Source: Clostridia bacterium (GTDB lineage: Bacteria > Bacillota_A > Clostridia > Christensenellales > Aristaeellaceae). Taken from it: a stretch of DNA of 12,744 nt. The translations under genes and the position numbers were made by a program. Shown here piece by piece: positions 1-12,744 of the stretch. The stretch lies in assembly GCA_017938785.1 (NCBI GenBank), contig JAGBAU010000070.1:1-12744 (forward strand). Reading direction: 5' to 3'. The notes beneath the pieces are model-generated. The model made no database searches, was not told where the DNA came from, and worked only from the letters and a program-made list of their open reading frames with translations. Positions within the stretch are counted from its first letter, which is position 1. Each line of letters opens with the position of its first letter.

Positions 1-329
1 CCAACAACATCATGAAGCCCATTGACGTCATCTGGGGTGCTGTAGATAACGCTGCTATCGGCGCTGCTACTGCTCTTGAGCAGAATGGCGCAGAAGGCAC
101 CATCGTTGTATCTGCAGGCGGCTGGGGTGCAGAGCCCTTCGGCAAGATCAACGCCGGCGATCCCTACTACAAGATGTGCATCGGCGTTTCCGCAGCCAAC
201 ATCGTTGCTCTGACCCTGGATTCCATCGCCCGCTACCAGGCTGGTGAGGAAGTTGCCAAGTCCCAGAACATCGAACTGGCAGTTATCGACAGCAGCAACA
301 TCGCTGACTACATGAAGTACGTCGCATAA
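1..329 (+). CDS. C-terminal end of an ABC transporter solute-binding protein, type-1 periplasmic binding fold (partial, 5' cut by window)
   Basis: The reading frame is open from the first bases of the window (frame starting at base 3) to TAA at 327-329, so about 109 codons of the C-terminus are present. The visible part reads as the last lobe of a ribose/xylose-type (Peripla_BP_4) binding protein: a segment with 'AVDNAAIGAATALEQNGAEG' is the typical 'nD..A.GA..AL...G' strand-helix unit, followed by a strand ending in a Gly-rich turn and a final helix near 'NIVALTLDSIARYQAGEEV'. Proteins of this family bind a sugar or similar small polar solute outside the membrane and deliver it to an ABC permease. 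The ATM at base 12 is an internal Met, not a start. Neither permease nor ATPase is in view, so they would have to lie upstream. The solute cannot be told from this fragment. Confidence 0.8.
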   Translation, partial: NNIMKPIDVIWGAVDNAAIGAATALEQNGAEGTIVVSAGGWGAEPFGKINAGDPYYKMCIGVSAANIVALTLDSIARYQAGEEVAKSQNIELAVIDSSNIADYMKYVA

Positions 330-339
330 TTGAACCCTT

Positions 340-373
340 CCGGGAGAATCGAAACCGGTTCTCCCGGTTTTTT
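340..373 (+). terminator. Intrinsic terminator after the solute-binding protein gene
   Basis: A 9-bp perfect stem, CCGGGAGAA (340-348) with TTCTCCCGG (359-367), is followed by six T residues (368-373). It begins 10 nt after the stop codon of the binding-protein gene. Because I see no good promoter between it and the next gene at 411, it may be leaky: binding-protein genes are often expressed more strongly than downstream genes through such partial terminators. That last point is inference. Confidence 0.85.
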
Positions 374-410
374 CAAAGAGATTTATTCAAGTGAGAGGAG
401 TAATTAACAA

Positions 411-1589
411 ATGAGCAAAAAGGTTATGCAGCTGCCCCGCCAGGAATATGATCTCCGCATCACCCGCGTACAGGAAGGCATGAAAAAGGCTGGGATCGAC
501 CTGCTTGTGGCCCATGCCTGCGAATGCGAATCCGCGACTGTACGTTATTTAACCGGTTTCTGGTCTGTATTTGATTTTGTAGGCGTGCTTGTTCCTGCAG
601 AAGGCAAACCCATCTTCCTCACCGGTGGCCCCGAATCCTATGATTTTGCCGTACAGTTTGCGCAGATGGATGATGTGCGCGTACATCCGATGTATGTTGA
701 AACCTGCGCGCCTGAATGGGACAAGCCCACCAATCCCTGGAATTATACCATGATCCTCAACGAGCTGCGTGAACGCATGCCCATCAAGAAAATCGGCATT
801 GCAAATGTAAACACCCTCCCCCACGTTATCTATGCAGACATCATGGAAGGCGCACAGGACGCTGAAATTGTACCCGCCGAGGAAATCATACTCAATGAGC
901 GCGTAATCAAATCCGCCGGTGAGATTGCCCTTCTGAAGGAAGGCTACCGTATCACTGAGGAAGCCCTCAAAAAGACCATGGAAATGGTTCGGCCCGGCGT
1001 CAGCGAGCGCGAAATCCTGGCCCGCTGGAAGGCGCTGGCCTTTGAGATGGGCTGTGAGGGCTTTGGTTATCCCTGCTGGGTAACCAGCGGCCCCAACACC
1101 TACCAGAGCCTGTGCAAGTCCACCGACCGTGAACTGGTTGGCAACGAAATGGTTCAGTTCTCCGTCGGCGCAAAATACAATGGCTACTGCGGCAATATCG
1201 GCCGCGTTGCAGTGCTAGGCAAGCTGCCTGAGAAGCATATGGACATGATCAAGGTTGCACGCGACAGCCTGGACGAAACCATCGAAACCATGCGCCCCGG
1301 CGTTCCCTTTGCCGAGGTTTACAATAAGTTCCAGGCACGCCTGACCAAGTACGGTTTCGCAGGCTTCTCCCTCTATGGTCCTGCCCATTCCACCGGCTTG
1401 CAGGAATGTGAAGCTCCCTGGGTGGACAACCGTACCAGCAAGATTCTGCTGCCGAACATGGTATTCAACATCGACATCTGGCTTGCAGACGACAAGTATG
1501 GCGTACGCCTCGAGGACGGTATTCTCATCACCGAAAATGGCATTGAGGAACTGACCACCTGGCACCGTGATATTATCCAGATCGACTAA
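411..1589 (+). CDS. M24 (creatinase / Xaa-Pro peptidase fold) family protein with degenerate metal site
   Basis: 392 aa, ATG at 411 with GAGGAG (395-400) ten bases upstream. Residues about 10-155 form the creatinase-type N-terminal domain and 165-385 the pita-bread C-terminal domain. Aligning by eye to the five metal ligands of Xaa-Pro aminopeptidases (Asp, Asp, His, Glu, Glu): the first Asp is Ser251 ('VQFSVGA'), the second is Asn262 ('GYCGNIGR', 11 residues on, the usual spacing), His326 is kept ('YGPAHSTGL'), the first Glu is Asp355 ('FNIDIWL') and Glu368 is kept ('GVRLED'). Two of five ligands are therefore lost, so a dimetal aminopeptidase is unlikely. Metal-free creatinase, which cleaves a C-N bond of creatine, is the known precedent. 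It heads a three-gene set with an M20 amidohydrolase 16 nt downstream. The product may be a hydrolase of an amide- or guanidino-type compound, or a non-catalytic protein; the substrate is unknown. Confidence 0.85.
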   Translation: MSKKVMQLPRQEYDLRITRVQEGMKKAGIDLLVAHACECESATVRYLTGFWSVFDFVGVLVPAEGKPIFLTGGPESYDFAVQFAQMDDVRVHPMYVETCAPEWDKPTNPWNYTMILNELRERMPIKKIGIANVNTLPHVIYADIMEGAQDAEIVPAEEIILNERVIKSAGEIALLKEGYRITEEALKKTMEMVRPGVSEREILARWKALAFEMGCEGFGYPCWVTSGPNTYQSLCKSTDRELVGNEMVQFSVGAKYNGYCGNIGRVAVLGKLPEKHMDMIKVARDSLDETIETMRPGVPFAEVYNKFQARLTKYGFAGFSLYGPAHSTGLQECEAPWVDNRTSKILLPNMVFNIDIWLADDKYGVRLEDGILITENGIEELTTWHRDIIQID

Positions 1590-1605
1590 TCCGGAGGAAA
1601 GGCAC

Positions 1606-2844
1606 ATGAACGTCTGGAAATCTAGTGAAGAAATGAATGCTCTCCTGGCGGAATTGGTGCGCTGTCCCACTGAAAACCGTCCGCCCTATGGCTATGAAGC
1701 CGCAGGGCAGGCGGTGCTTTGCAAGGCTTATGAGGATATAGGCCTGGAAACGCATCGGGTTTGTCCGTCAGATTTGAAGGAATACCCTGACCATCCAGCC
1801 TTTCTTCCCAGGGTTTTCGATGATCGCGAGAACGTTGTTGGAATCTGGAAGGGCTCTGGAGAGGGCAAATCCCTGCTCCTCACCGGGCACATGGACGTTG
1901 CGCCCAAGGAGCCCATGCCCTGGGTCATTACCCAACCATACGAGCCCTTGTTAAAGGACGGGCGCATGTACGGACGTGGAACCGCCGATATGAAGGCAGG
2001 TCTGGTGTGCGCATGGGAGGCTGTTCGCAGACTGAAGGCACAAGGGTTTGTTCCGAAAGGCGACATCATCCTGGAGAGCGTCGTCGATGAGGAATATGCC
2101 GGAGCAAACGGCACAATAGCCGGGCGACTCAGCGGCTACAATGCTGATTTCGGCATCGTACTTGAACCCAGCGGCTTGAATATCTGCCCGGCCTGCGTTG
2201 GCGGACTGGTCATCAAGCTCAGCGTTCAGGGAATTGCCGGTATGCCCTACACCGGCGAGGAAATTGGCAATCCTGCATTCGACATTGCCGAATTGATTCA
2301 GCTGGTCAAGCAGTTCAGCGAAAAGCGCATGGGAGAAGCCGTCGCTCCTCAGCTCTGGGAAGGAACAGTACAGGGTGCGCAGGTGGTCATCACCAAGGTC
2401 AAGGCCGGCGAAGTCGGCGAGGAAGGCCAGCTCTCCTCTCCCATTGACGCCTGGATGGAAATCGTCATGCAATCCTATCCCGGTGAAGAGGAAGATGAAC
2501 TGATCGGAGCGTTACGGGATTTCATGAATGCAAATTACCATGATCCGGCAGGCCTGACCATCACCCGTCTTTACCGTTACTGCCGTCCCGCCGCTACGGA
2601 TGCAAACGAAACCGGCATCCAGACTCTTGCCGAATGTGCAGCGCCCTATACGAATCTTTCAAAGGTCTGCGGCGCTATGTTCTCCTGTGATATGTTTGCA
2701 CTGACCGAACTGGGCAAGATTCCTTCCGTCATCTTCGGACCGGTTGGCGGCCGCCTGCATGCGCCGGACGAGTGGGTGGATCTGGAAAGTATGGAAATCT
2801 GTACGCGCTCGCTGATGGATTTCATCATCAAATGGTGCGGCTGA
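1606..2844 (+). CDS. M20 family metallopeptidase / amidohydrolase (ArgE/DapE/CPG2-like)
   Basis: 412 aa from ATG 1606. The frame is open further upstream to 1567, but the GGAGG at 1593-1597 sits eight bases before 1606 and the upstream codons overlap the M24 gene, so 1606 is the better start. All ligands of the co-catalytic two-zinc site are visible: His95 and Asp97 in 'TGHMDV', the bridging Asp128 in 'GRGTADMKAG', catalytic Glu162 with Glu163 in 'VVDEEYAG', Glu187 in 'VLEPSG', and His385 in 'GRLHAPDEW'. The central segment (about 200-310) is the lid/dimerisation domain. The family removes acyl groups from amino acids or cleaves C-terminal amides or dipeptides in the cytoplasm; no signal peptide is present. 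It is 11 nt from the oxidoreductase gene that follows, so the three genes should be co-transcribed. Which N-acyl or peptide substrate it uses cannot be read from the sequence. Confidence 0.9.
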   Translation: MNVWKSSEEMNALLAELVRCPTENRPPYGYEAAGQAVLCKAYEDIGLETHRVCPSDLKEYPDHPAFLPRVFDDRENVVGIWKGSGEGKSLLLTGHMDVAPKEPMPWVITQPYEPLLKDGRMYGRGTADMKAGLVCAWEAVRRLKAQGFVPKGDIILESVVDEEYAGANGTIAGRLSGYNADFGIVLEPSGLNICPACVGGLVIKLSVQGIAGMPYTGEEIGNPAFDIAELIQLVKQFSEKRMGEAVAPQLWEGTVQGAQVVITKVKAGEVGEEGQLSSPIDAWMEIVMQSYPGEEEDELIGALRDFMNANYHDPAGLTITRLYRYCRPAATDANETGIQTLAECAAPYTNLSKVCGAMFSCDMFALTELGKIPSVIFGPVGGRLHAPDEWVDLESMEICTRSLMDFIIKWCG

Positions 2845-2855
2845 AAGGAAAAGAT

Positions 2856-3902
2856 ATGAAGAAGATTCGATTTGGCATCATCGGAGCTGGCGGAATTGCC
2901 GACAGGCGTACCATCCCGGGATTGCTTAAGAGTGAAAAGGCCGAGCTCATCGCCGTAATGGGACCCAATGCGGAAAGAACGGAGGCGATCCGGGCAAAGT
3001 ACAATGCAAGGTTTGCTTACACCAGTGAGGAAGACCTGCTGAAGAATCCTGAAATCGACGCTGTTTACATTGCTTCCCCCGTCAATATGCATCTTTCACA
3101 GGCTAAGCTTGCAGCGGATTACGGCAAACACATTCTGTTGGAAAAGCCGCTCGCTCTTACAGCTGAAGATGCGCAGGAACTTCTTGAATACTGTGAAGCT
3201 CGAAAGGTTCGGGTTGCCGCAGGCTTCATGATGCGCTTCGGAACCTGCATCAACGCCATGAAAGATGCCTACAGGAGCGGTAGAATTGGCAAGCTGGTTT
3301 CTGCTTACGCACAGTTCACCTGCTGGTATCCGGACATCAAAGGAAGCTGGCGGCAGCAGAAGTCCCTGGGCGGCGGCGGTGCGCTGATGGATATGGGTGT
3401 ACACATGATCGATCTGATTCACTACGTCACCGGCTCCAGAACCTGCCAGGTCGCTGCAATGCACGATACACTGGCCTTCAGTTATGAGGTTGAAGACTCC
3501 TCCAATGTGATGCTTCGGTTGGAAAACGGCGCGCTTTGCACCGTACAATCCAATTTCAGCATCCCTGACGAGGCTGCAAAGTGGCGTTTTGAACTCTTCG
3601 GAACGAAGGGGCGCCTGATGGGCAGCGAAATCATCGGCCAGGTGGACGCCGGAGATGTAGAGGCGCTCTTCCTTGAAGAAAACAGTGCTTATGATGCGCA
3701 GCAGGGCGGAAATAAGCCTGCATCTGTTCAGCATCTGACAGGCGAATTCGGCGATCTGTACCAAAGGCAAATTGATTCCTTCTGCGATTCACTTCTGAAT
3801 CATAAACCGTTGGAGGTGGACGCACGTGAAGGTTTGTTCGCACAGCGGGTTGTACAGGCTGCCTACCAATCCAATGATGAAAACCGAATCATCTTCCTGT
3901 AA
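2856..3902 (+). CDS. Gfo/Idh/MocA family NAD(P)-dependent oxidoreductase
   Basis: 348 aa from ATG 2856. An open frame reaches back into the M20 gene, but an AAAGGA-type ribosome binding site (2844-2849) and the Rossmann start right after Met ('KKIRFGIIGAGGIA', Gly10-x-Gly12) fix the start here. The N-terminal half (1-120) binds the dinucleotide. Glu96-Lys97-Pro98 is the family's EKP signature, and 'DMGVHMIDLIHY' supplies Asp179 and His183, matching the Lys/Asp/His triad known from inositol dehydrogenase. The C-terminal half (about 125-340) is the beta-sheet substrate domain. These enzymes oxidise or reduce a hydroxyl/keto group on sugars, cyclitols or related compounds. Last gene of the block, directly followed by a terminator. 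The catalytic set is intact, so it is probably an active dehydrogenase; the substrate is not determinable, although a preceding sugar-type binding protein is consistent with a sugar or sugar derivative. Confidence 0.9.
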   Translation: MKKIRFGIIGAGGIADRRTIPGLLKSEKAELIAVMGPNAERTEAIRAKYNARFAYTSEEDLLKNPEIDAVYIASPVNMHLSQAKLAADYGKHILLEKPLALTAEDAQELLEYCEARKVRVAAGFMMRFGTCINAMKDAYRSGRIGKLVSAYAQFTCWYPDIKGSWRQQKSLGGGGALMDMGVHMIDLIHYVTGSRTCQVAAMHDTLAFSYEVEDSSNVMLRLENGALCTVQSNFSIPDEAAKWRFELFGTKGRLMGSEIIGQVDAGDVEALFLEENSAYDAQQGGNKPASVQHLTGEFGDLYQRQIDSFCDSLLNHKPLEVDAREGLFAQRVVQAAYQSNDENRIIFL

Positions 3903-3904
3903 AT

Positions 3905-3940
3905 GAAAAGAGCTTGAAACTTGAGTTTCAAGCTCTTTTC
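3905..3940. terminator. Bidirectional intrinsic terminator between convergent genes
   Basis: A perfect 17-bp inverted repeat (3905-3921 and 3924-3940) with a 2-nt spacer. The outer part is AAAAG on the left and CTTTT on the right, so both strands give a stem followed by a U-rich end. It starts 2 nt after the oxidoreductase stop and ends 4 nt before the stop codon of the opposing pepF gene, as expected for a shared terminator. Confidence 0.9.
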
Positions 3941-3944
3941 TAAC

Positions 3945-5714
3945 TTATTTGCTCATCAACGATTCAAATTCGTTCAAAGTCTCCTCGAAAACCTTCAGCG
4001 CACGTTCAATGGGTTCCGGAGTTGTCAAATCAACGCCTGCAATCTTCAACTCATCCAGCGGATACATGCTGCCGCCCGTCGAGAGGAAGCGCAGATAGTC
4101 TTCGGTACCCTCGCCACTGAGAATGCGGTCCGCAATGGCGACTGCACTACAAAAGCCGGTTGCATACTGGTAAACATAGAACGCACGATAGAAATGCGGA
4201 ATCCTCGCCCATTCCAGGTCAGTATACGGCGTGCCTTCAGCGTTGGGATAATAAGCCTCGTTCATTTCACGATAGAGATCATTGAGCGCCTGCGAAGTCA
4301 GAGGCGTTCCTGCCTCATACATCTCATGCGCACGCTTTTCGAACTCTGCAAAGAGGGTCTGGCGGAAAACCGTCGTACGGAAGCCATCCAAAAGATGGTT
4401 CAGGATGTATGCACGCTTCTTCTCATCCGTTTCAACGGACAATAAATAGCGCGTCAGCAATACTTCATTCACCGTCGAGGCCACTTCCGCCACGAAAATG
4501 GAATACTCGTTGTTCACATAAGCCTGCTTTTCGGAGGAAAACCAGGAGTGCATTGCGTGGCCCAACTCATGCGCAAGTGTAAACGCATCATCATACTTAT
4601 TGGTATAATTCAGCAATACATAAGGATGCACACCAAACACGCCGCAGGAATAGGCGCCTGTCGTCTTGCCCTTGTTCTCGTAGACGTCAATCCATTTTTC
4701 ATTGAAAGCGCGCTCAAGCAGGCCCTGATAGGTGGAGCCCATGGGCTTCATAGCTTCCAAAACAAGGCGTCTGGCTTCTTCATAAGGCATTTCCGCGTCC
4801 ACATCCTCAACAAGGGGAACATAGAGATCGTACAGGCTGAGCTTATCAAGTCCCAGCAGGCGCTTGCGAAGCTCCAGATAACGGCTCAGCTCCGGCACAA
4901 ATCCTCGCACGCTTGCGATCAGATTATCGTACAGCGTTACAGGCACATTATCTGCATGCAAACCGGATTCCAGCGCACTTTGATACCTTCTTGCCTGGGC
5001 AAAATAGCTGTCGAACTTCACGCTGCCGGAGTACAGGGAGGCCATGGTATTGATATACTTGCCGAACTCGCCGAAATACTTTTCGAAAGCTTCCTTGCGG
5101 ATATCCGCACCGCGTGCTTCGCGATAATTACCGAAGAGTGCATGCGTCAGCGGACTGCCGTCGGACATATTTTCAAACCGCATGTCTACGCTTTCAAAGA
5201 GATCGTAGGTCTTGATGGGCGTTTGAGATGCATCTCCGAGCATCGCAAGCAGGCGCTCCTCCCCTTCGCTGAGGGTGTGTTCGCGTCCGCGGCATACATC
5301 AAAGAGCATATGGCGGTAGACTTCCAGTTCAGGCAACTCCATCCAGGCGTTCAGGCGCTCAGTATCTATGGAAAGTATCTCGGGATTCAGGAAAGCAGAA
5401 GCCGTGGAAAAGTCGACGAAAAGCCGCGTTGCGCGCGCTTCCATCTCCTGCGCCTCAGCATTCCCGTTGTCTCCCGAAGAATTGAGAAATGCATATACAT
5501 AGACGCGCTCCGCCTTTTCAGCAGCGGCATAGAGCTTATCAAGTCCCGCCTTCAGCGACTCTGCGGATTCGCCGAGGGTACCTGCAATGGCAGGCACCTC
5601 AGCGACTGCTTTAGTAGCTTCCTGGAATGCCCGTTCCCAGGCCTCACGATTTTTAAAAATGTCTGAGAGATCCCACTGGAACGCCGGATTCATCTCGCTG
5701 CGCAACTTATCCAA
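3945..5714 (-). CDS. pepF: Oligoendopeptidase F (M3 family zinc peptidase)
   Basis: 589 aa, normal for the family. The zinc site is intact: His382-Glu383-x-x-His386 in 'FTLAHELGHAMHSW', with the third ligand Glu410 in 'VAEVASTVNE'. N-terminal residues 10-200 match the helical PepF N-domain ('WDLSDIF' near residue 14). The enzyme cleaves short peptides (about 7-17 residues) in the cytoplasm; no signal peptide is seen. Start choice: the best initiator is TTG at 5714, ten bases after a strong AGGAGG (5725-5730). An ATG lies only 3 nt after that Shine-Dalgarno but is in another frame and hits a stop after four codons. A later in-frame ATG at 5693 (residue 8) is the alternative start. It is the last gene of the nadD-rsfS-paaK-ACT-pepF row, 32 nt from the ACT gene, and shares a bidirectional terminator with the convergent oxidoreductase. 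Confidence 0.93.
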   Translation of the reverse strand: MDKLRSEMNPAFQWDLSDIFKNREAWERAFQEATKAVAEVPAIAGTLGESAESLKAGLDKLYAAAEKAERVYVYAFLNSSGDNGNAEAQEMEARATRLFVDFSTASAFLNPEILSIDTERLNAWMELPELEVYRHMLFDVCRGREHTLSEGEERLLAMLGDASQTPIKTYDLFESVDMRFENMSDGSPLTHALFGNYREARGADIRKEAFEKYFGEFGKYINTMASLYSGSVKFDSYFAQARRYQSALESGLHADNVPVTLYDNLIASVRGFVPELSRYLELRKRLLGLDKLSLYDLYVPLVEDVDAEMPYEEARRLVLEAMKPMGSTYQGLLERAFNEKWIDVYENKGKTTGAYSCGVFGVHPYVLLNYTNKYDDAFTLAHELGHAMHSWFSSEKQAYVNNEYSIFVAEVASTVNEVLLTRYLLSVETDEKKRAYILNHLLDGFRTTVFRQTLFAEFEKRAHEMYEAGTPLTSQALNDLYREMNEAYYPNAEGTPYTDLEWARIPHFYRAFYVYQYATGFCSAVAIADRILSGEGTEDYLRFLSTGGSMYPLDELKIAGVDLTTPEPIERALKVFEETLNEFESLMSK

Positions 5715-5746
5715 AGGCCATAGTCCTCCTGATTTGATTTAAGGAA

Positions 5747-6184
5747 TTAAAGGCTGTCCACTTCTTCCTGGGTGCGCAGACGCACACCATAGGCATTGAG
5801 AACCGCGAGACCGCGCTCCTTTTCGGAGAGGCGCAGAACCATCAGGCCCTGAGTCTCGGAAGTTCTGCGGAAGGAATACATGTATTCGACAGACAGGTTT
5901 TCGTTTTCAATGATGGTCAGAAGATTGGCAAGTCCGGAGGGCTTGTCATCGATTTCAGCACAGATGACGTTGTTGATGCGGGCAGTATAACCGGCGCCCT
6001 TCAGCAGGGACATCGCCTTATCAATAGAATCGGACTTGATGATCAGGCGAACAATACCGAAATGCTGGGTATCCGCAACGGAAATTTCACGGATATCGAT
6101 GTTGCCGGAACCGAGCAGAGCGGTCATTTCGCGCAGGGTGCCAGGACGATTTTCAAGAAAAACAGAAATCTGCTTAATAAACAT
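5747..6184 (-). CDS. Small protein with two tandem ACT domains, paired with the PaaK-like ligase
   Basis: 145 aa from ATG 6184; an AAAGGGG ribosome binding site lies about 10 bases upstream, and the open frame beyond that runs into the paaK gene and is not likely translated. Residues about 3-68 ('IKQISVFLENRPGTLREM...') and 72-140 ('VICAEIDDKPSGLANLL...') are two ACT repeats, each with the typical 'v.v.dkPG.La.l...L...gini' start; the second has Ser in place of the usual Gly. ACT domains bind amino acids or related ligands at subunit interfaces. This stand-alone two-ACT form is well known next to phenylacetate-CoA ligase-like genes in Clostridia and archaea, and here starts 19 nt after the ligase stop. 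The likely role is a ligand-sensing partner or regulator in aromatic amino acid or aryl-acid metabolism. That role is inferred from context; no enzyme activity is expected. Confidence 0.88.
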   Translation of the reverse strand: MFIKQISVFLENRPGTLREMTALLGSGNIDIREISVADTQHFGIVRLIIKSDSIDKAMSLLKGAGYTARINNVICAEIDDKPSGLANLLTIIENENLSVEYMYSFRRTSETQGLMVLRLSEKERGLAVLNAYGVRLRTQEEVDSL

Positions 6185-6203
6185 ATCTTTTGAACCCCTT
6201 TCT

Positions 6204-7523
6204 TTACAGCTTGCGGCGGTCAACCACATGCTTTGCCTTGCCTTCGAATCTCGGAATGGACTTGGGAGCAACCAGTGTAACCTTCGTACTGATACCAACG
6301 GTGGACTTCACCTTTTCAACAATCAGCTTGCGAAGGGCTTCGATTTCGGAAACGGTATCGGAGAACATGGATTCCGTCATTTCAACCTGGATTTCCAGGG
6401 TGTCGGCAGAATTCACACGATCAGCATAGAGCATGTAGTGAGGCGCAACGCCATGAATGCCCACCAGAACGGATTCAATCTGGCTCGGGAATACGTTTAC
6501 GCCGCGGATGATGATCATATCATCAGTACGGCCGGTGATGCGGCCCATGCGCACCAGGGTACGACCGCACTCGCAGGGTTCGTCGGTCAGGGTGCACAGG
6601 TCATGGGTGCGGTAGCGAAGCATCGGCATACCGCGCTTGGTGATCGTCGTGAACACCAGTTCACCCTCCTGACCATAAGGCAGGGGTTCGCCGGTTGCGG
6701 GATTGATGATTTCAGCAATCACGTGGTCCTCGTTGATGTGCATGCCCTGCTTTGCCAGGCATTCGAATGCAACACCGGGGCCACAGATTTCAGTCAGGCC
6801 ATAGATATCGCAGGCATCGATGCACAGCAGCTCTTCAATCTTCTGACGCATGGCCTCAGACCAGGGTTCTGCGCCGAAACAGCCCGCCTTGAGCTTGAGA
6901 TCCTTTTGGGGATCAAGGCCCGCTTCGCGAATGCTTTCACCGAGGAATACCGCATAGGACGGCGTGCAGCACAGCACCGTGGAGCCCATTTCCTGCATCA
7001 TCATGATCTGGCGCTGGGTATTGCCGCTGGACATAGGGATGACCATTGCGCCGATCTTGTCTGCGCCCTGATATGCACCGAAACCGCCGGTGAACAGGCC
7101 GAAGCCGTAGCCAACCTGCACGATGTCTTCCTTGGTGGTGCCGGCAGCGGTCAGCGTACGCGCCATAAGCTCAGACCAGATATCTACATCTTCGCGAGTA
7201 TAGCCGGAAACGATGGGCTTGCCGGTGGTACCGGAAGAACCATGGATGCGCACAATTTCGCTCTTGGGAACTGCCAGCAGTCCGTAGGGGAACTCGTCAC
7301 GAAGATCCGTTTTTTCGGTGAAGGGCAGGTAGCGCAAATCTTCAATGGTGCGGATATCTTCGGGCTTAACTCCCTTGGCGTCCATGCGGTCACGGTAGAG
7401 CTTGACGTTGTCGTACTCATGGCGAACAACTTCGCGAAGCCGCTCGTTCTGAAGAGCAATGCGCTCGTCGCGGCTCATACATTCCATTTCGGGATTAAAA
7501 ATAATGTGTTCACGTTTTTCCAT
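6204..7523 (-). CDS. Phenylacetate-CoA ligase-like AMP-forming enzyme (PaaK family)
   Basis: 439 aa, the usual PaaK length; ATG at 7523 with GAGAGG about 9 bases upstream. Adenylate-forming signatures are all present: the phosphate-binding loop 'SSGTTGKP' at residues 96-103, 'DIYGLTEICGPG' at 239-250, the hinge/A8 region 'GRTDDMIIIRGVNVFPSQIE' at 331-350, and the C-terminal 'PRFEGKAKHVVDRR' at 424-437, with Lys429 as probable catalytic lysine. The enzyme would activate an aryl acid (phenylacetate, indoleacetate or similar) with ATP to an adenylate and then to the CoA thioester, in the cytoplasm. In anaerobes such ligases serve aromatic amino acid fermentation, usually beside indolepyruvate:ferredoxin oxidoreductase (iorAB); iorAB is not in this window. 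It lies 42 nt after rsfS and 19 nt before the ACT gene in the same direction. The exact acyl substrate is uncertain, so I give no gene symbol. Confidence 0.9.
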   Translation of the reverse strand: MEKREHIIFNPEMECMSRDERIALQNERLREVVRHEYDNVKLYRDRMDAKGVKPEDIRTIEDLRYLPFTEKTDLRDEFPYGLLAVPKSEIVRIHGSSGTTGKPIVSGYTREDVDIWSELMARTLTAAGTTKEDIVQVGYGFGLFTGGFGAYQGADKIGAMVIPMSSGNTQRQIMMMQEMGSTVLCCTPSYAVFLGESIREAGLDPQKDLKLKAGCFGAEPWSEAMRQKIEELLCIDACDIYGLTEICGPGVAFECLAKQGMHINEDHVIAEIINPATGEPLPYGQEGELVFTTITKRGMPMLRYRTHDLCTLTDEPCECGRTLVRMGRITGRTDDMIIIRGVNVFPSQIESVLVGIHGVAPHYMLYADRVNSADTLEIQVEMTESMFSDTVSEIEALRKLIVEKVKSTVGISTKVTLVAPKSIPRFEGKAKHVVDRRKL

Positions 7524-7565
7524 AGTCTTACCTCTCGCCCGTTAGCGTTTCGATTTATTCTGGGT

Positions 7566-7928
7566 TTATTGTTCGTCCAGCGGAATGAATTCCACCTGAT
7601 TGGAACCATCCTGCCAGAGTCTTTCGATGTTGTAGAAATTACGTTCTTCAGGGTGGAAGATATGTACAATCACATGTGCATAATCCAGAACAATCCACTT
7701 GGAATCGCGCTCGCCCTCCTTGCGGCGGGGTTCGATACCTTCAGCAGCCAGCTTATCCTCCAGATCCTCCGCCAGGGAACGTACGGACTGAATGTTACGT
7801 CCGTTTGCAAATACAAAATAATCGGTAATCGAGGTCAGATGGGAAACCTCAAGAATCTGAATATCATTTGCACCCTTTTCGTCCAGGAATTTTGCTGCCT
7901 TAAGCGCCAAAGCCTTGGAATCGATCAT
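7566..7928 (-). CDS. rsfS: Ribosome silencing factor RsfS (Iojap / YbeB family)
   Basis: 120 aa, typical length. The family pattern is clear: 'SITDYFVFANGRNIQSV' at residues 33-49, 'SKWIVLDYAHVIVHIF' at 76-91, and the C-terminal 'RNFYNIERLW' at 95-104. RsfS binds ribosomal protein L14 (uL14) on the 50S subunit and blocks subunit joining when nutrients are short. The ATG (7928-7926) overlaps the TGA stop of the upstream nadD-yqeK gene as ATGA, a translational coupling arrangement, and a strong GGAGG (7936-7940) lies eight bases upstream inside that gene. The nadD-yqeK-rsfS order is a conserved Firmicutes gene cluster. Confidence 0.95.
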   Translation of the reverse strand: MIDSKALALKAAKFLDEKGANDIQILEVSHLTSITDYFVFANGRNIQSVRSLAEDLEDKLAAEGIEPRRKEGERDSKWIVLDYAHVIVHIFHPEERNFYNIERLWQDGSNQVEFIPLDEQ

Positions 7929-9097
7929 TGTTTTTCCTCCTTTATACTGTGATAGAATGCTTCCAGCATGGCCAGCGACCTGGGATGAGGCCGCCTGCCC
8001 TGACTTTTTACATGTTCATTGGTAAGCTGTGCACACTTGCACATTGCCCTGTAAATATCTGTTTCGGCAAGCTGACGTGCCTCAGCCAATCCCGGGAAGT
8101 CTTCCCGTCCAGGTTCAATAAAATCAGCCGTATAGATGAGCGCCTCCAGCGGGCTCATACTGACGTCCCCCAGCGTATGCTTTCGAATCGCTGAAAGAAT
8201 CTCAGGATCACGAATTCCAAATTCCTGCGCAGCATATACTGCGCCCGCAGGGGCATGCAGTACACTGACTGCCTCCAGTTCCAATTCGTCTGTGTCCGGA
8301 ATATACTTCTTCACAAGGCTTTGCATTTCTTCCAGAGGCATATACTTCGCACAATCGTGCAAAAGCGCGGCAAACTCTGCCCGTACCGGATCAATGCCAA
8401 AACGCTCCGCCAGGCGTACAGCCGTTTCAGCCACCCCCATCGTATGCTTCATACGCGCAGGCTTCAGGTTTTTTCGCAGATGCTCAAGAATTTCGTCCTT
8501 TGACCGGTTGGAAATATACAAACCATGGTCTTTTATATATTTACAGACCGAAGTCGGTACGATTGTGTCAATCTCAAGTCCCTCTGCGACGCGTTTTCTC
8601 ACTTCGGAAGAGGAGATGTCCGGTCCCGAAAAGTTCAACAGAACAAATTGGGCTCCGTATTCATCCTGGAGCGCTTTTGCCTTCGCCCTGCTGGCATCCG
8701 CATCTGCACGGCCGGTTACCGCAAAGATACAAAGCTTCGCAACCTCTTTAAAACTGCGCCATGTATCCAATACATCCAGCGTGTCCGCGCCAATCAGATA
8801 ATACCATTCCACCGAAGGATTCTCCCTATGCAGCTGGCGCAGGGTATCCACGGTATAGGTTGTTCCCTTTCGGTTGATTTCAATATCACTGGGAAACAGG
8901 CCCTTCACTTCCCCAGCTGCCAGGCGGACCATTTCAAGGCGGTCCTGCTTGGATATGGGGTTGCTCTTATGGGGCGGATCACCGGCCGGCAGGAGCATTA
9001 CGCTGTCCAGGCCGAGCTGATCAAGCGCAGCCTTCGCTACCTGGATGTGGCCGTTGTGCACAGGATCGAGCGTTCCGCCCATGATGCCAACACGCAT
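7925..9097 (-). CDS. nadD: Fused nicotinate-nucleotide adenylyltransferase (NadD) and YqeK HD-domain hydrolase
   Basis: 390 aa from ATG 9097, preceded by GGGAGGG with a 7-nt gap; the frame is open to 9313 but the upstream codons overlap the divergent gene and lack family similarity. Residues 1-195 are NadD: 'GIMGGTLDPVHNGH' at 4-17 contains the HxxH nucleotidyltransferase motif, and 'ISSSEVRKRV' (161-170) is the C-terminal ATP-binding signature. NadD joins nicotinate mononucleotide and ATP to deamido-NAD. Residues about 200-390 are a YqeK-type HD domain: His218 ('RMKHTMGVA'), His247-Asp248 ('LLHDCAKY'), His281, His307 ('IRKHTLGD') and Asp325 ('YTADFIEPGR'), the metal ligands of the diadenosine tetraphosphate (Ap4A) hydrolases. 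In many Firmicutes these are two adjacent genes; here no stop separates them. The fusion is also known in some other lineages. First gene of the leftward operon. Confidence 0.93.
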   Translation of the reverse strand: MRVGIMGGTLDPVHNGHIQVAKAALDQLGLDSVMLLPAGDPPHKSNPISKQDRLEMVRLAAGEVKGLFPSDIEINRKGTTYTVDTLRQLHRENPSVEWYYLIGADTLDVLDTWRSFKEVAKLCIFAVTGRADADASRAKAKALQDEYGAQFVLLNFSGPDISSSEVRKRVAEGLEIDTIVPTSVCKYIKDHGLYISNRSKDEILEHLRKNLKPARMKHTMGVAETAVRLAERFGIDPVRAEFAALLHDCAKYMPLEEMQSLVKKYIPDTDELELEAVSVLHAPAGAVYAAQEFGIRDPEILSAIRKHTLGDVSMSPLEALIYTADFIEPGREDFPGLAEARQLAETDIYRAMCKCAQLTNEHVKSQGRRPHPRSLAMLEAFYHSIKEEKQ

Positions 9098-9185
9098 GCT
9101 GCATCCCTCCCGTTCCAAATCTATCGGATGTATATTCTTTTTTATTTCGTCAAAACTATTCAAAAACCCTTCACGGAGGAAGCTC

Positions 9186-9932
9186 ATGGGGAAAAAAATT
9201 GACAGATTTGTCCTTACTTCCGTCCTGGCCGCAGGCTTGTTTCTGTATTTCGAGGCAGCATTCCAGAACCATGTTCTTGCAATCCTGCTGGCCGTGGTGT
9301 GCTGCGCGGTCATTTTGAAAACGCTTGCAAAACTAAGCCGGCTGATCTGCCGGACCGCATGGCATCAGCGAAAGCTTCTGCGCATGAAATCCGGCAGCAC
9401 GCTGATGCAAATCGCCTGCATGGATACGGAAGATGCCCGTCAGATCATACAGAACCTGATTTCCGGCAGCTACCCGCACGAAGCGCCCGTTTCCATCGAA
9501 TTACTGCATCCTTCCATGCAGCTTGCTGAAACGGATGTTTTTCGTATATGGCGGGAATTTCGCGGAACGGACAGGCTCATCATCTGCACCAGCGGAAAAT
9601 GCAGTTCTGAAGTGCGCTCATTCGCCTCTTCCCTGAAAATGCCCAGGCTGGCGATTGTGGATGGAGATATACTCTCCCAGCTCATTGCCGAACATCCGGA
9701 AATTTCCCTTCCCACTCAGATTGAAAAAAAGAGACAACTGCTGAAGTTCAAGCACCTCGCCCAGCTGCTCTTCAACCGGCGCAATGCTCCGCGCGGCTTA
9801 CTCTTTTCGTTTACGATGCTGGTTATGTACGTATTCAGCGGAAACGGCAGTTACCTCTTTGCATGCCTGTTTCTCCTCTTCACGGCATTGGTCTCCTTCA
9901 GAAGGGTCAACCGTCCTGCAAAACTATTTTGA
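9186..9932 (+). CDS. Four-helix membrane protein with a restriction-endonuclease-like (Mrr-type) soluble domain, function unknown
   Basis: 248 aa from ATG 9186, with GGAGGA (9175-9180) five bases upstream; the longer open frame from 9045 overlaps nadD and has no ribosome binding site. Hydrophobic segments are at about 8-24, 28-46, 203-218 and 221-237, giving a TM-TM-soluble-TM-TM layout. I do not recognise a named family with certainty. Residues 131-167 ('LIICTSGKCSSEVRSFASSL' followed by 'KMPRLAIVDGDILSQLI') resemble the last strand-helix-strand of Mrr-cat/restriction-endonuclease-like domains, where the pattern is 'fvTtg.fs.eA..fA....i.liDg..L..ll'. I do not see the catalytic D...(E/Q)xK motif in residues 70-130, so the nuclease may be inactive, or the likeness may be by chance. 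It is divergent from nadD with an 88-bp gap and is monocistronic, ending in a hairpin shared with the convergent kinase gene. Confidence 0.75.
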   Translation: MGKKIDRFVLTSVLAAGLFLYFEAAFQNHVLAILLAVVCCAVILKTLAKLSRLICRTAWHQRKLLRMKSGSTLMQIACMDTEDARQIIQNLISGSYPHEAPVSIELLHPSMQLAETDVFRIWREFRGTDRLIICTSGKCSSEVRSFASSLKMPRLAIVDGDILSQLIAEHPEISLPTQIEKKRQLLKFKHLAQLLFNRRNAPRGLLFSFTMLVMYVFSGNGSYLFACLFLLFTALVSFRRVNRPAKLF

Positions 9933-9962
9933 GCGTCTGGTCATAAACCAGACGCTCAAAAT
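9926..9962. terminator. Perfect hairpin between convergent genes, probable bidirectional terminator without a U tract
   Basis: A 16-bp perfect inverted repeat (9926-9941 and 9947-9962) with a 5-nt loop. The core is GAGCGTCTGGT / ACCAGACGCTC. The stop codon TGA of the + strand gene (9930-9932) lies inside the left arm and the opposing pfkB-family gene stops at 9975. On both strands the GC-rich core is followed by AAAAT rather than by T residues, so it is not a textbook intrinsic terminator, though its position between convergent genes argues for one. Confidence 0.6.
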
Positions 9963-9974
9963 GAGCTATTCCAT

Positions 9975-10976
9975 TCAACGAAGTTCTGCGTAGAGCTTCT
10001 TCACATCCGCTTCAGTACGCATGCCGTCGGTTGCGTTTGCTTCGCTGAGGGAAGCTGCGGCGGATGCAATGCCCAGAACGATTGCGTCCTCGAGGCTGTC
10101 GCCGTGCTCCGCACCGCAGAGCACGCCTGCGCAGAATGCGTCGCCTGCGCCAACACTGCCCTTGATGTAGCCTTCCGGCAAGTGCAGGCTTTCCTTGGCG
10201 ATGTAATTTCCGTTTTCATCGATGCCGAATCCGCCTTCGGGGCTATGGATAACCGCCCAGGTGGAAACGCCCATTTCCTTCATGCGCTGAAGTGCCTTGG
10301 GCAGGTTTTCGTAAATCAGCTTATCCTCCGCATCGCGCAGTTCGATACCAGTGGTCTGGGAGGCCTCCAGTTCGTTGATGATGCAGTAGTCGGTGTACTT
10401 CAGTGCCGGAGGCACCAGGCGGCGGAAGCGGTCGCTGGCTTCGCTGACAACGTCGATGGAGGTCTTGATGCCATGCTCCTTCGCCTTGGAGAGCAGGCGT
10501 GCCATGCGGCTGCCATACTCCGGATCCTCCTGGTCCAGCGCGTTGAGCAACAGGATATAGCCGATGTGCAGGATGTTGCAGTCCAGCTTATCCCAATCCA
10601 CATCGTCCACATCGAACTTTGCATTCGCGCCCAGGTAGGTAAAGAAGGTGCGCTCCTTGGATACGGTATCGGAAAGAACCAGGGTAATGGCGGATATGCC
10701 ATCCTGGATTACGTTGGCGGTATCAATATTTTTATGCTCGCCGAGCTTTTCCATGATCAGCTCGCCCTCGGCGTCCTTGCCGATCTTGCCCAGTGCATAG
10801 AGGGGCATATCGGGGTCAAGCTTTGCCAGATCGATAATAACATTGCAGACAGCGCCGCCGGTCGCGCGGGAAATGCCGTCCAGAATATGTACCAGCTGGC
10901 CCTGCTTCGGCCAACCCATAGTCGGATAGATAATATCTACGATCATATTGCCAGCAACACAAATACCTTTGCCCAT
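9975..10976 (-). CDS. PfkB / ribokinase family carbohydrate kinase
   Basis: 333 aa, normal for the family; ATG at 10976 with AGGGGTG about seven bases upstream. The signature near the C-terminus, 'GSVGAGDAFCAGVL' (273-286), contains the anion hole GAGD with Asp279 as the catalytic base. 'ATGGAVCNV' (38-46) is the N-terminal Gly-Gly sugar-binding turn, and Asn201-Glu202 is the phosphate/Mg motif of the family. It transfers the gamma-phosphate of ATP to a hydroxyl of a sugar or nucleoside in the cytoplasm. Ribokinase, fructokinase, 2-keto-3-deoxygluconate kinase and nucleoside kinases all share these features, and I cannot choose among them. It is monocistronic with its own strong promoter (see 11010-11038) and no neighbouring sugar genes that would reveal its substrate. 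Confidence 0.9.
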   Translation of the reverse strand: MGKGICVAGNMIVDIIYPTMGWPKQGQLVHILDGISRATGGAVCNVIIDLAKLDPDMPLYALGKIGKDAEGELIMEKLGEHKNIDTANVIQDGISAITLVLSDTVSKERTFFTYLGANAKFDVDDVDWDKLDCNILHIGYILLLNALDQEDPEYGSRMARLLSKAKEHGIKTSIDVVSEASDRFRRLVPPALKYTDYCIINELEASQTTGIELRDAEDKLIYENLPKALQRMKEMGVSTWAVIHSPEGGFGIDENGNYIAKESLHLPEGYIKGSVGAGDAFCAGVLCGAEHGDSLEDAIVLGIASAAASLSEANATDGMRTEADVKKLYAELR

Positions 10977-11009
10977 GATTTCACCCCTGTACGTTATTTC
11001 AGTGACTTT

Positions 11010-11038
11010 ATTTTAACACAGACCAATTCAAATTTCAA
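11010..11038 (-). promoter_or_regulatory. Sigma-A type promoter of the PfkB-family kinase gene
   Basis: On the minus strand: -35 TTGAAA (11038-11033), 17-bp spacer, -10 TAAAAT (11015-11010) with a TGT just before it, i.e. an extended -10. The transcript would start near 11003, about 27 nt upstream of the kinase ATG at 10976, leaving just enough leader for the ribosome binding site. Confidence 0.8.
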
Positions 11039-11090
11039 CAGCTTTATACGAAGCCGTGCGCTTTTCCGTGAAATTCTTAGCTGCGTAGTA

Positions 11091-11119
11091 TTGACGGACA
11101 AAGTGCTTTGTGCTAAACT
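11091..11119 (+). promoter_or_regulatory. Sigma-A type promoter of the cobalamin-riboswitch transcript
   Basis: -35 TTGACG (11091-11096), 17-bp spacer, -10 TAAACT (11114-11119) preceded by TGC, an extended -10. Transcription would start near 11126, just before the riboswitch aptamer and about 296 nt ahead of the first ATG. The spacer holds an inverted repeat ACAAAG-TG-CTTTGT (11098-11111). The promoter is divergent from the kinase promoter, about 52 bp away. Confidence 0.8.
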
Positions 11120-11126
11120 AACACTT

Positions 11127-11251
11127 GAAGTAAAATTCATATTTTTCAGAGGAAGTACGGTGCAAATCCGTCGCAACCACCATTACCGTAATTGCCGCAG
11201 GCATAAGTCGGGTCGACTGGGAAATCTGAGCATAATCACAGCTTGCTGTGA
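11127..11251 (+). promoter_or_regulatory. Cobalamin (vitamin B12) riboswitch-like aptamer
   Basis: The core 'GGAAGTACGGTGCAAATCCG' at 11151-11170 matches the conserved cobalamin riboswitch pattern GGGAA..cGGTG.AA.TCCg, followed by CGC and 'ACCGTAA' (11185-11191) where the family has C-GTAA. Visible helices: TCAGA (11146-11150) with TCTGA (11225-11229) closing the core; ACGG (11157-11160) with CCGT (11168-11171) as P5; GCC/GGC (11194-11202); AGTCG/CGACT (11206-11218) followed by GGGAAA, as in the conserved hairpin-GGGAA element. Just after it, TCACA/TGTGA (11236-11240 and 11247-11251) forms a P13-like hairpin whose loop TTGC (11243-11246) is complementary to GCAA (11162-11165) in the P5 loop: a possible L5-L13 kissing contact. 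No canonical B12 box (AAGCCAGGAGACCTGCC) is found, so this may be a class-II or variant aptamer. The genes downstream fit cobalamin sensing. Confidence 0.75.
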
Positions 11252-11280
11252 AAAAAGGCAACCGTTTTTGGGTAGGAAAA

Positions 11281-11331
11281 GCGCAGCCTTTGGGAAACGA
11301 GGGTTCTGCCTCGATTTCCGAAGAACTGTGC
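11281..11331 (+). promoter_or_regulatory. Antiterminator hairpin of the riboswitch expression platform
   Basis: GCGCAG (11281-11286) pairs with CTGTGC (11326-11331, one G-U), CTTT (11288-11291) with GAAG (11320-11323), GGAAA (11293-11297) with TTTCC (11315-11319), and CGAGG (11298-11302) with CCTCG (11309-11313), leaving small bulges and a 6-nt loop. The 3' arm covers most of the left arm of the terminator at 11328, so the two folds exclude each other. The function as antiterminator is inferred from this overlap. Confidence 0.6.
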
Positions 11332-11368
11332 GTCCGAAGCCATATGTGGCAAGGCGCACTTTTTGTTT
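11328..11368 (+). terminator. Riboswitch-controlled intrinsic terminator
   Basis: GTGCG (11328-11332) and CC (11334-11335) pair with GG (11353-11354) and CGCAC (11355-11359), with one bulged T. Inside, GCCA (11339-11342) pairs with TGGC (11347-11350). Five T residues follow (11360-11364), then GTTT. It lies within the leader, about 54 nt before the first ATG, as expected for a B12-dependent 'off' switch by premature termination. Confidence 0.8.
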
Positions 11369-11421
11369 ATCCTGCATTTCATCCCAAAGCGATGCACATT
11401 CAAAAGAAAAGAGGTCATCTT

Positions 11422-12093
11422 ATGAAGAAGTATTTGAGCATCGTTCTGGCACTTGTTTTCCTGAACGGCATCGCAGCTGCGGAAACCATCTATGTCACCA
11501 TCAGCGACGACCAGGGCAATCTGGTCATGGCCTCCGAAGCCGTGAATGTAAATGATATGGACGGCGACGGCGTCGTCAACTTCCACGAAGCTCTGATCGC
11601 TGCCCATGATCTCGTCTACCCCGGCGGTTCCGAAGCCGGCTACGCAGCCGCGGACCAGGGCTACGGTCTGAGCATGAGCCGCCTGTGGGGCGTTGAAAAT
11701 GGTGGAAGCTATGGCTATTACGTGAACAATGTATCCGCCTTCAGCCTGCTGGATCCTCTCAGTGACGGTGACTGCATCTATGCTTATGCATTCACTGACC
11801 TTGAAAACTGGTCTGATACATTCAGTTTCTTTGAACTTGATGAAGTCGATGCAGACGGCAGTTTCAAGCTGTCCCTTTCCGCTCAAACTTACGATGCAGA
11901 CTGGAACGCGGTGTATGTTCCTGTGGAAGGCGCGGTGATCACCGTGAACGGTGAAGATACCGAGCTCAAAACCGATGCAGAAGGCAAGGTTACCATTTCA
12001 CTGGAAGCCGGTGAATACCTGATTTCTGCTCACAGTGAAACCATGACCCTCGTGCCTCCTGTATACAAGGCAACCGTTTCCGCTGCAAAATGA
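11422..12093 (+). CDS. Exported DUF4430 (transcobalamin C-terminal-like) protein with EF-hand loop and Ig-like tail
   Basis: 223 aa; ATG 11422 with GAGG (11411-11414) seven bases upstream. The open frame extends back to 11248 but would cross the riboswitch terminator, so 11422 is the start. Residues 1-20 are a signal peptide (KK, hydrophobic stretch, 'IAAA' before Glu21) without a lipobox. Residues 45-56 ('DMDGDGVVNFHE') form a complete EF-hand calcium loop: Asp45, Asp47, Asp49, Gly50, Glu56. Residues about 75-125, with 'YGLSMSRLWGVENGGSYGYY' then 'VNN' and 'DPLSDGDCIYAYAF', match the DUF4430 pattern, the fold of the C-terminal cobalamin-binding domain of intrinsic factor and transcobalamin. 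Residues about 160-205 ('VPVEGAVITVNG...TDAEGKVTISLEAGEY') look like a carboxypeptidase-regulatory/Ig-like beta-sandwich. There is no LPXTG or C-terminal TM, so it is free or held by a partner. It follows a cobalamin-type riboswitch and overlaps the next gene: probably part of a B12-capture system. Confidence 0.85.
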   Translation: MKKYLSIVLALVFLNGIAAAETIYVTISDDQGNLVMASEAVNVNDMDGDGVVNFHEALIAAHDLVYPGGSEAGYAAADQGYGLSMSRLWGVENGGSYGYYVNNVSAFSLLDPLSDGDCIYAYAFTDLENWSDTFSFFELDEVDADGSFKLSLSAQTYDADWNAVYVPVEGAVITVNGEDTELKTDAEGKVTISLEAGEYLISAHSETMTLVPPVYKATVSAAK

Positions 12094-12744
12094 GAATGAA
12101 AAAACTGTTTAACTGGGCATTGGTGCTTATATTTGCGCTCACGCCCTTTTCAGCTTTGGCGCAGGAGGTCTATCAGGATATCTCTGACGGCATTCTCACC
12201 TTTGCCGGCAATGGAAAAACCGTGCAGGAATGGCTGGATGAAACCGTTTCTCCCGCAGCCGGCAGCACGATGGATTATTATGTTCTCCTGTTGAACAGGT
12301 TTGGAACTGATCTGGATTATACGGAATATGTTCGATATGCCGCCCCCCTGCTTGAAAAGGATGGAATCAGCAATCCCGTTACCCGCCAGAAATGTGCGCT
12401 TGCTGTGAACGCCTGCGGTGCTGCAGATATGATTCCAGGCGGCATTGCAGACGAAACCATCGGCAAGCTTGGAGTAATGAGCTATGTCTACGGCCTCCAT
12501 CTTCTGAACAATGGTGCAGAATCTGAGCAATGGACGATTGAAGCCGTGATTGAAAAGTTGCTGGAAATGCAAAAGGCAGACGGTGGCTGGGCTGTAATGG
12601 GCCAGTACGGAGATACGGACGTAACCGCCATGTGCATTCAGGCGCTCGCTTGCAACCGCGGTAACAATATTCGGATCATCGAAGCCATCAATGAAGCTCT
12701 GAACTTTCTCAGCCAAAGCCAGCTTGAAAACGGAGGTTTCATCG
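12090..12744 (+). CDS. Exported prenyltransferase-like alpha/alpha-barrel protein, intrinsic-factor N-domain-like (partial, 3' cut by window)
   Basis: No stop is reached before the window ends; 218 codons are visible. The start is ATG 12090, overlapping the TGA of the previous gene as ATGA, or ATG 12096 two codons on; no strong Shine-Dalgarno is seen, so translation is probably coupled. Residues 1-24 are a signal peptide (Arg/Lys start, 'WALVLIFALTPFSALA' before Gln25) without a lipobox cysteine. The mature part is helical, with prenyltransferase/squalene-oxidase-type repeats: 'MQKADGGWAVMGQYGDTDVT' (about 174-193) has the 'Q..dGGW......d...T' signature, and another begins at 'SQSQLENGGFI' at the edge. 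This alpha6/alpha6 barrel is the N-terminal half of intrinsic factor and transcobalamin. With the DUF4430 gene and riboswitch upstream, a cobalamin-binding or presenting role is likely but inferred. The C-terminus, including any own DUF4430 or anchor, is outside the window. Confidence 0.8.
   Translation, partial: MRMKKLFNWALVLIFALTPFSALAQEVYQDISDGILTFAGNGKTVQEWLDETVSPAAGSTMDYYVLLLNRFGTDLDYTEYVRYAAPLLEKDGISNPVTRQKCALAVNACGAADMIPGGIADETIGKLGVMSYVYGLHLLNNGAESEQWTIEAVIEKLLEMQKADGGWAVMGQYGDTDVTAMCIQALACNRGNNIRIIEAINEALNFLSQSQLENGGFI

Follow-up and report, generated by a model that had tools for sequence, protein, structure and literature searches.

Bacterial transcobalamin-like beta-grasp (SLBB) domains fused to toroids were described by Burroughs et al. 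(2007; PMC1796856), who, in the passages on these proteins, often found them accompanied by another, paralogous extracellular protein in operons that also encode a CbiO-like ATPase and a CbiQ-like protein. The host bacteria usually lacked key enzymes of vitamin B12 synthesis, and B12 scavenging was proposed as a prediction only. Since B12 scavenging by such operons was proposed there, the kind of system treated here had already been predicted. We analyzed a 12,744-nucleotide stretch of DNA from a Clostridia bacterium (contig JAGBAU010000070.1, positions 1 to 12,744; the window), at the right-hand end of which a cobalamin riboswitch aptamer precedes two overlapping genes for exported proteins, P1 and P2, the second running past the edge. 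A preliminary description of this end had noted aptamer, gene overlap and signal peptides, and all were found again. The window end is very probably the start of a B12-repressed operon for the uptake of cobalamin (corrinoid), with P2 as a membrane-tethered clamp, P1 as a helper and import by an energy-coupling factor (ECF) transporter. The pair is a well-defined variant of the predicted class. This reading is based on the riboswitch match, the gene order in relatives, predicted folds and the kinship of the S component; from these we infer ligand binding, calcium binding, topology, hand-over, import, and DUF4430 and ECF genes in the contig of the window. The features, all on the forward strand, are the following.

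11091-11119, +: sigma-70-type promoter-like site, TTGACG-17-TAAACT with TG before the second hexamer (consensus match only)
11124-11270, +: cobalamin (adenosylcobalamin, AdoCbl) riboswitch aptamer, RF01482
11328-11364, +: terminator-like hairpin and U run, putative expression platform (folding)
11422-12093, +: gene 1 (P1), exported protein of 223 amino acids (aa), open reading frame (ORF) from ATG 11422
11422-11481, +: P1 signal peptide, residues 1-20, AAA before E21 (by eye; hydropathy peak at residues 5-23)
11473-11805, +: P1 beta-grasp domain of transcobalamin-beta/DUF4430 fold, residues 18-128 (fold)
11554-11589, +: EF-hand-like loop DMDGDGVVNFHE, residues 45-56, within the beta-grasp domain (motif)
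11818-12090, +: P1 C-terminal immunoglobulin-like (Ig-like)/CarboxypepD_reg-like domain, residues 133-223 (Pfam in relatives, fold)
12090-12743, +: gene 2 (P2), exported alpha-toroid protein, 218 aa up to the window edge, ORF from ATG 12090
12090-12161, +: P2 signal peptide, residues 1-24 (by eye; hydropathy of residues 6-24 of the relative P0124)
12165-12743, +: first part of the alpha-alpha toroid (identity to P0124, structure model of the relative)

Like the systems in the passages of Burroughs et al. (2007), the operon as seen in relatives combines an exported toroid plus beta-grasp protein, a second extracellular SLBB protein, a CbiO/CbiQ-like transporter and a frequent lack of B12 synthesis. 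It differs in having a riboswitch, a word absent from the main text of that paper (PMC1796856), and in its CbrT-type S component, membrane hairpin, EF-hand loop and unlinked gene splits, none of which was seen in these passages. Human intrinsic factor, transcobalamin and haptocorrin have the toroid followed by the beta-grasp domain on one chain, as do the P2 relatives, and the folds match over both domains, with 12-14% sequence identity between a P2 relative and the human B12 carriers in Foldseek alignments; in 68 of 69 loci, however, a predicted two-helix membrane hairpin separates the domains of the bacterial protein, in contrast to the human carriers. A related S component and an ECF module are known from ECF-CbrT of Lactobacillus delbrueckii, as far as the relevant passages go (PMC5997447), where an E. 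coli btuF btuC metE strain was used for this transporter. The related operons differ from it by encoding, beside the S component, also the T component and a fused double ATPase, together with exported putative binding proteins. In Bacteroides, BtuG and BtuH are surface B12 binders, encoded as extra binders in riboswitch-controlled loci; in the passages concerned, BtuH has Ig-like domains, and a btuH homologue of Eubacterium siraeum lies near a predicted ECF cobamide transporter (PMC6977713, PMC8941943). The loci studied here are similar in placing extra exported candidate B12 binders under riboswitch control, and the Ig-like domain of P1 recalls BtuH; however, the BtuH binding domain was reported in these passages to be without a known structural homologue, whereas P1 has the transcobalamin beta fold. 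Judged mostly from listings, the openly licensed PMC literature yielded no experimental test of such systems, and among its papers mentioning 'DUF4430' no title concerned bacterial B12 uptake.

P2 and the operon in relatives

Related loci were obtained by scanning a collection with one genome per species (84,980 species), and 80 of 161 confirmed loci were kept. All were retrieved through P1 relatives, so that P1 is present in all of them by construction; its absence at other loci was not searched for. By their titles nearly all kept loci belong to metagenome-assembled genomes (MAGs) of Clostridia, many from rumen or gut, the single isolate being Ruminococcus flavefaciens YRD2003. The host of the P1-P2 pair is probably a gut or rumen bacterium as well.

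The P1 and P2 ORFs share a 4-base ATGA overlap, and the P2 ORF continues past the window. Its closest full-length relative found, P0124, is 82% identical over all 218 aa; full-length relatives have about 500 aa. The prenyltransferase-like barrel previously assigned to gene 2 was recovered as a Prenyltrans Pfam match below threshold (E 5.5e-04, 19.9 bits, cut-off 26.5) and in the predicted fold of P0124, which supports a toroid and matches the B12 carriers over both domains. The P2 sequence profile, compared with PDB sequences, retrieved terpene cyclases and weakly alpha-2-macroglobulin, and neither transcobalamin nor intrinsic factor. P0124 carries PF14478 (DUF4430) after the toroid, and so do all 120 listed of 646 P2 relatives, a list biased to full-length proteins because the query had the DUF4430 end. 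By analogy, P2 of the window should carry its own DUF4430 beyond the edge, as the preliminary description had allowed. Two hydrophobic helices lie between toroid and DUF4430 in 68 of the 69 loci with both on one ORF and in 120/120 listed proteins; with such a predicted membrane hairpin between their domains, the P2 relatives would not simply be soluble secreted proteins. Judged from the models, P2 may bind a corrinoid between toroid and DUF4430. In the DUF4430 part Cys395 is invariant (47/47) and Cys484 nearly so (P0124 numbering, alignment A3); the two could form a disulfide or provide a cobalt ligand. D177, Q211, E226, Q230, H271, Y461 and W471 are likewise invariant in P2.

A toroid ORF follows P1 in 78 of the 80 loci, within 110 bases in 77 of the 78; in L075, one of the two without it, the sequence ends one base past P1. 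Toroid and DUF4430 lie on one ORF in 69 loci and on separate ORFs in two (L028, L051), and of the seven toroid loci without DUF4430 four are cut by the contig end and three are complete (L035, L040, L058). Where at least 5.5 kb follow P1 (62 loci), the toroid was found in 61, DUF4430 in 58, EcfT in 56, the fused double ATPase in 55 and the S component in 56. All five are present in 55 of these 62 loci, and the order toroid-T-A-S holds in 55/55, in agreement with the ECF-type transporter guessed earlier. The exceptions are L038 with P1 alone, L062 and L065 without ECF genes, L053 without the ATPase, and L035, L040 and L058. Pfam and NCBIfam identities at L012 were PF14478, PF02361 (CbiQ), ECF ATPase TIGR04520 and PF07155/PF12822. 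When a profile of the S component (22 of 49 stand-alone proteins) was compared with PDB sequences, 6fnp_A, the S chain of ECF-CbrT, was matched with an E-value of 4.5e-14, and the next S component with 0.012. Among NCBIfam models, those of the folate family and of riboflavin came nearest to the S components, with scores under the cut-off for the member shown. In the contig of the window, ECF genes presumably follow P2 just beyond the edge.

Apparent A-A'-S fusions were seen at L028:13337-16045 (902 aa), L051:7252-9648 (798 aa) and L031:4155-7415 (1086 aa), where a single ORF contains both the double ATPase and the S match. At L044:12327-13145 and L052:8744-9556, P2 and EcfT are separated by a gene of roughly 270 aa, whose product resembles, by eye, a TIM barrel of the sugar-phosphate isomerase type. 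The upstream genes of L036, L044 and L052 appear unrelated by eye.

The riboswitch region

The aptamer is the sole Rfam match at gathering scores across the 12,744 bases, where it narrowly exceeds the required 50 bits with a score of 50.3 (E 5.9e-07), and thereby upholds the cobalamin-type aptamer of the preliminary description. Our own covariance model R1 scores it at 82 bits, the window being among the 21 training sequences of R1. The other two elements proposed for this region were located as well. The promoter-like site matches the consensus at 9 of 12 positions; it is weak on its own, because two such sites occur in the 501-base stretch while 0.5 are expected. Folding of 11322-11370 gave a stem at 11328-11359 (-16 kcal/mol, z -2.3, 5 of 200 shuffles equally good) followed by UUUUUGUUU, while a terminator pattern scan, which admits loops of 3-8 only, gave no match. 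The aptamer would control expression of P1 and P2 in response to corrinoid.

R1 was applied to both strands of 81 sources totalling 1.25 Mb. Of the 77 loci having at least 300 nt upstream, 57 have an R1 match that precedes the P1 ORF by 21-785 nt; 20 of these 57 belong to the training set and 37 do not. At L062 a match lies 3.8 kb from P1, and the one remaining listed match had an E-value of 0.26. No R1 match was obtained in 19 of the 77 loci, and three further loci were too short upstream. With the Rfam models at their own cut-off, a cobalamin riboswitch was detected upstream of P1 in 5 of 16 and in 3 of 8 loci, and in none of eight sources of split-gene lineages. The distance from aptamer end to P1 is about 430-590 nt in L001, L003, L049, L063 and L077, against about 150 nt in the window.

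P1 and competing explanations

P1 has 563 relatives at E<=0.001. Its first domain, previously described as DUF4430, has the transcobalamin-type beta-grasp fold, so that the assignment stands at fold level alone: PF14478 gave no Pfam match to P1 at E up to 1 and was not among the 25 commonest of the 38 families matched by 42 P1 relatives. In profile-profile alignment of P1 with P2 the signal peptides alone aligned, and the beta domain of P1 gave nothing meaningful with the DUF4430 of P2 (probability 2.4%, 10 columns); because of this failure, kinship of the two beta domains is a matter of fold. The EF-hand-like motif occurs in 77 of 77 complete P1 proteins of the loci and in 119 of 120 listed protein matches, compared with 27 of 2400 shuffles, and the acidic residues 45, 47, 49 and 56 are conserved across 42 sequences. 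Among PDB sequences, calmodulins matched P1 across this loop with E-values of 0.16 and worse. CarboxypepD_reg was matched at E<=0.1 in 37 of 42 P1 members and below cut-off in P1 of the window. The P1 profile retrieved from PDB sequences only chains of fatty acid kinase A (E 0.6) and no BtuH chain, the presence of one in the set being unchecked. P1 is probably an additional beta-grasp protein beside the DUF4430 of P2 itself. Variants of P1 were a 483-aa ORF with two consecutive P1-like units, seen as two separate matches (L022:9224-10675), and a C-terminus that by eye is a LysM cell-wall module in place of a membrane helix (L028:9863-10801).

The preliminary description took the pair as a cobalamin clamp split over two genes in reversed order, with P1 as the beta lid and P2 as the barrel. 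The fold of the first P1 domain would suit such a lid, the toroid gene is next to P1 in 78 of 80 loci, and in L035, L040 and L058 the toroid ORF itself is without DUF4430. However, DUF4430 lies on the chain of the toroid, in the vertebrate order, in P0124, in all 120 listed relatives retrieved with the DUF4430-containing query and in 69 of 80 loci. In the lineages where the two domains are genuinely separated, they are ORFs of one operon in L028 (DUF4430 by Pfam) and L051; in the L035 and L040 genomes a second contig carries the DUF4430 gene together with EcfT and ATPase, and the S component lies on yet another, and in the L058 genome P1-toroid and DUF4430-T-A-S are arranged head to head. In these last three genomes, whose loci were found through P1, P1 thus occurs beside a separate DUF4430 gene and does not stand in for it. 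PF14478 matched exactly once in 35 of 36 genomes and twice in one, P1 not being counted by this model. A division of the clamp between P1 and P2 is thus most improbable and was probably wrongly assigned here, while B12 control, ECF transport and the domain calls, the first at fold level, were retained.

Another ligand, be it cobalt, another tetrapyrrole, or mainly cobinamide or precursors, is an improbable cargo. Cobalt and precursor uptake also stand under B12 riboswitches in the passages of PMC3766115, cobinamide is also taken by ECF-CbrT in those of PMC5997447, a cobU-like gene (25.9 bits, just below the cut-off of 27) adjoins L028, and the S components are nearest to the folate-family model mentioned above. 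Against this, CbrT is by a wide margin the closest S component among PDB sequences, and the fold of P2 is that of B12 carriers. That P2 is an extracellular enzyme of terpene-cyclase/prenyltransferase fold instead of a carrier is hardly credible. The DXDD motif of class II cyclases is broken, position 178 being V or A in 47 of 47 sequences, and the DUF4430 fusion, riboswitch and ECF neighbours are ill-suited to an exported cyclase. The corrinoid uptake operon is the reading we prefer to both.

Corrinoid metabolism and proposed function

Of the 80 loci, 36 genomes were searched, mostly MAGs whose completeness is not stated, for which reason gene absences are weak evidence. The S component was found in 35 of the 36, CbiD in 7 and PF02310 in all; the last was common among controls as well (12 of 14 genomes). 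From these gene contents, most of the 36 genomes seem unable to make corrinoids. The MetH activation domain PF02965 was tried as a marker and proved uninformative (19 of 36 genomes matched, 12 over cut-off). The cobU-like gene at L028 is accompanied by a histidine phosphatase gene, which we take, by guess, to be cobC. At L018:2940-8167 a CO dehydrogenase/corrinoid Fe-S protein cluster (PF03063, PF03599) lies upstream of the operon on the opposite strand. Elsewhere in the window, one ORF (7925-9313, -) joins cytidylyltransferase-like and HD domains, by eye a NadD-YqeK fusion.

In the proposed mechanism, scarce B12 would let the riboswitch permit read-through of the terminator and hence expression, while with plentiful AdoCbl transcription would terminate. 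P2, judged from its relatives, would be an exported counterpart of intrinsic factor held to the membrane by the two-helix hairpin, whose outer alpha-toroid and outer DUF4430 beta-grasp domain would together clamp the corrinoid. P1, with its EF-hand-type calcium loop and Ig-like domain, would probably assist surface capture or hand-over, perhaps calcium-dependently, and the ECF transporter (EcfT, fused double ATPase and CbrT-like S component) would import the corrinoid. A more specific role for P1 as a calcium-dependent hand-over factor, which would dock on the membrane-tethered toroid-DUF4430 clamp, cause it to open and transfer the corrinoid to the CbrT-like S component, is speculative and rather doubtful. 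To our knowledge, direct capture of the substrate by the S component is what is otherwise described for ECF transporters; if true, hand-over by P1 would amount to an extracellular relay that supplies such a transporter.

A recurrent riboswitch-controlled operon in which intrinsic-factor-like receptors are combined with an ECF importer of CbrT type is a concrete, testable system, and knowledge of ECF transport would be widened by an exported receptor that acts before the S component.
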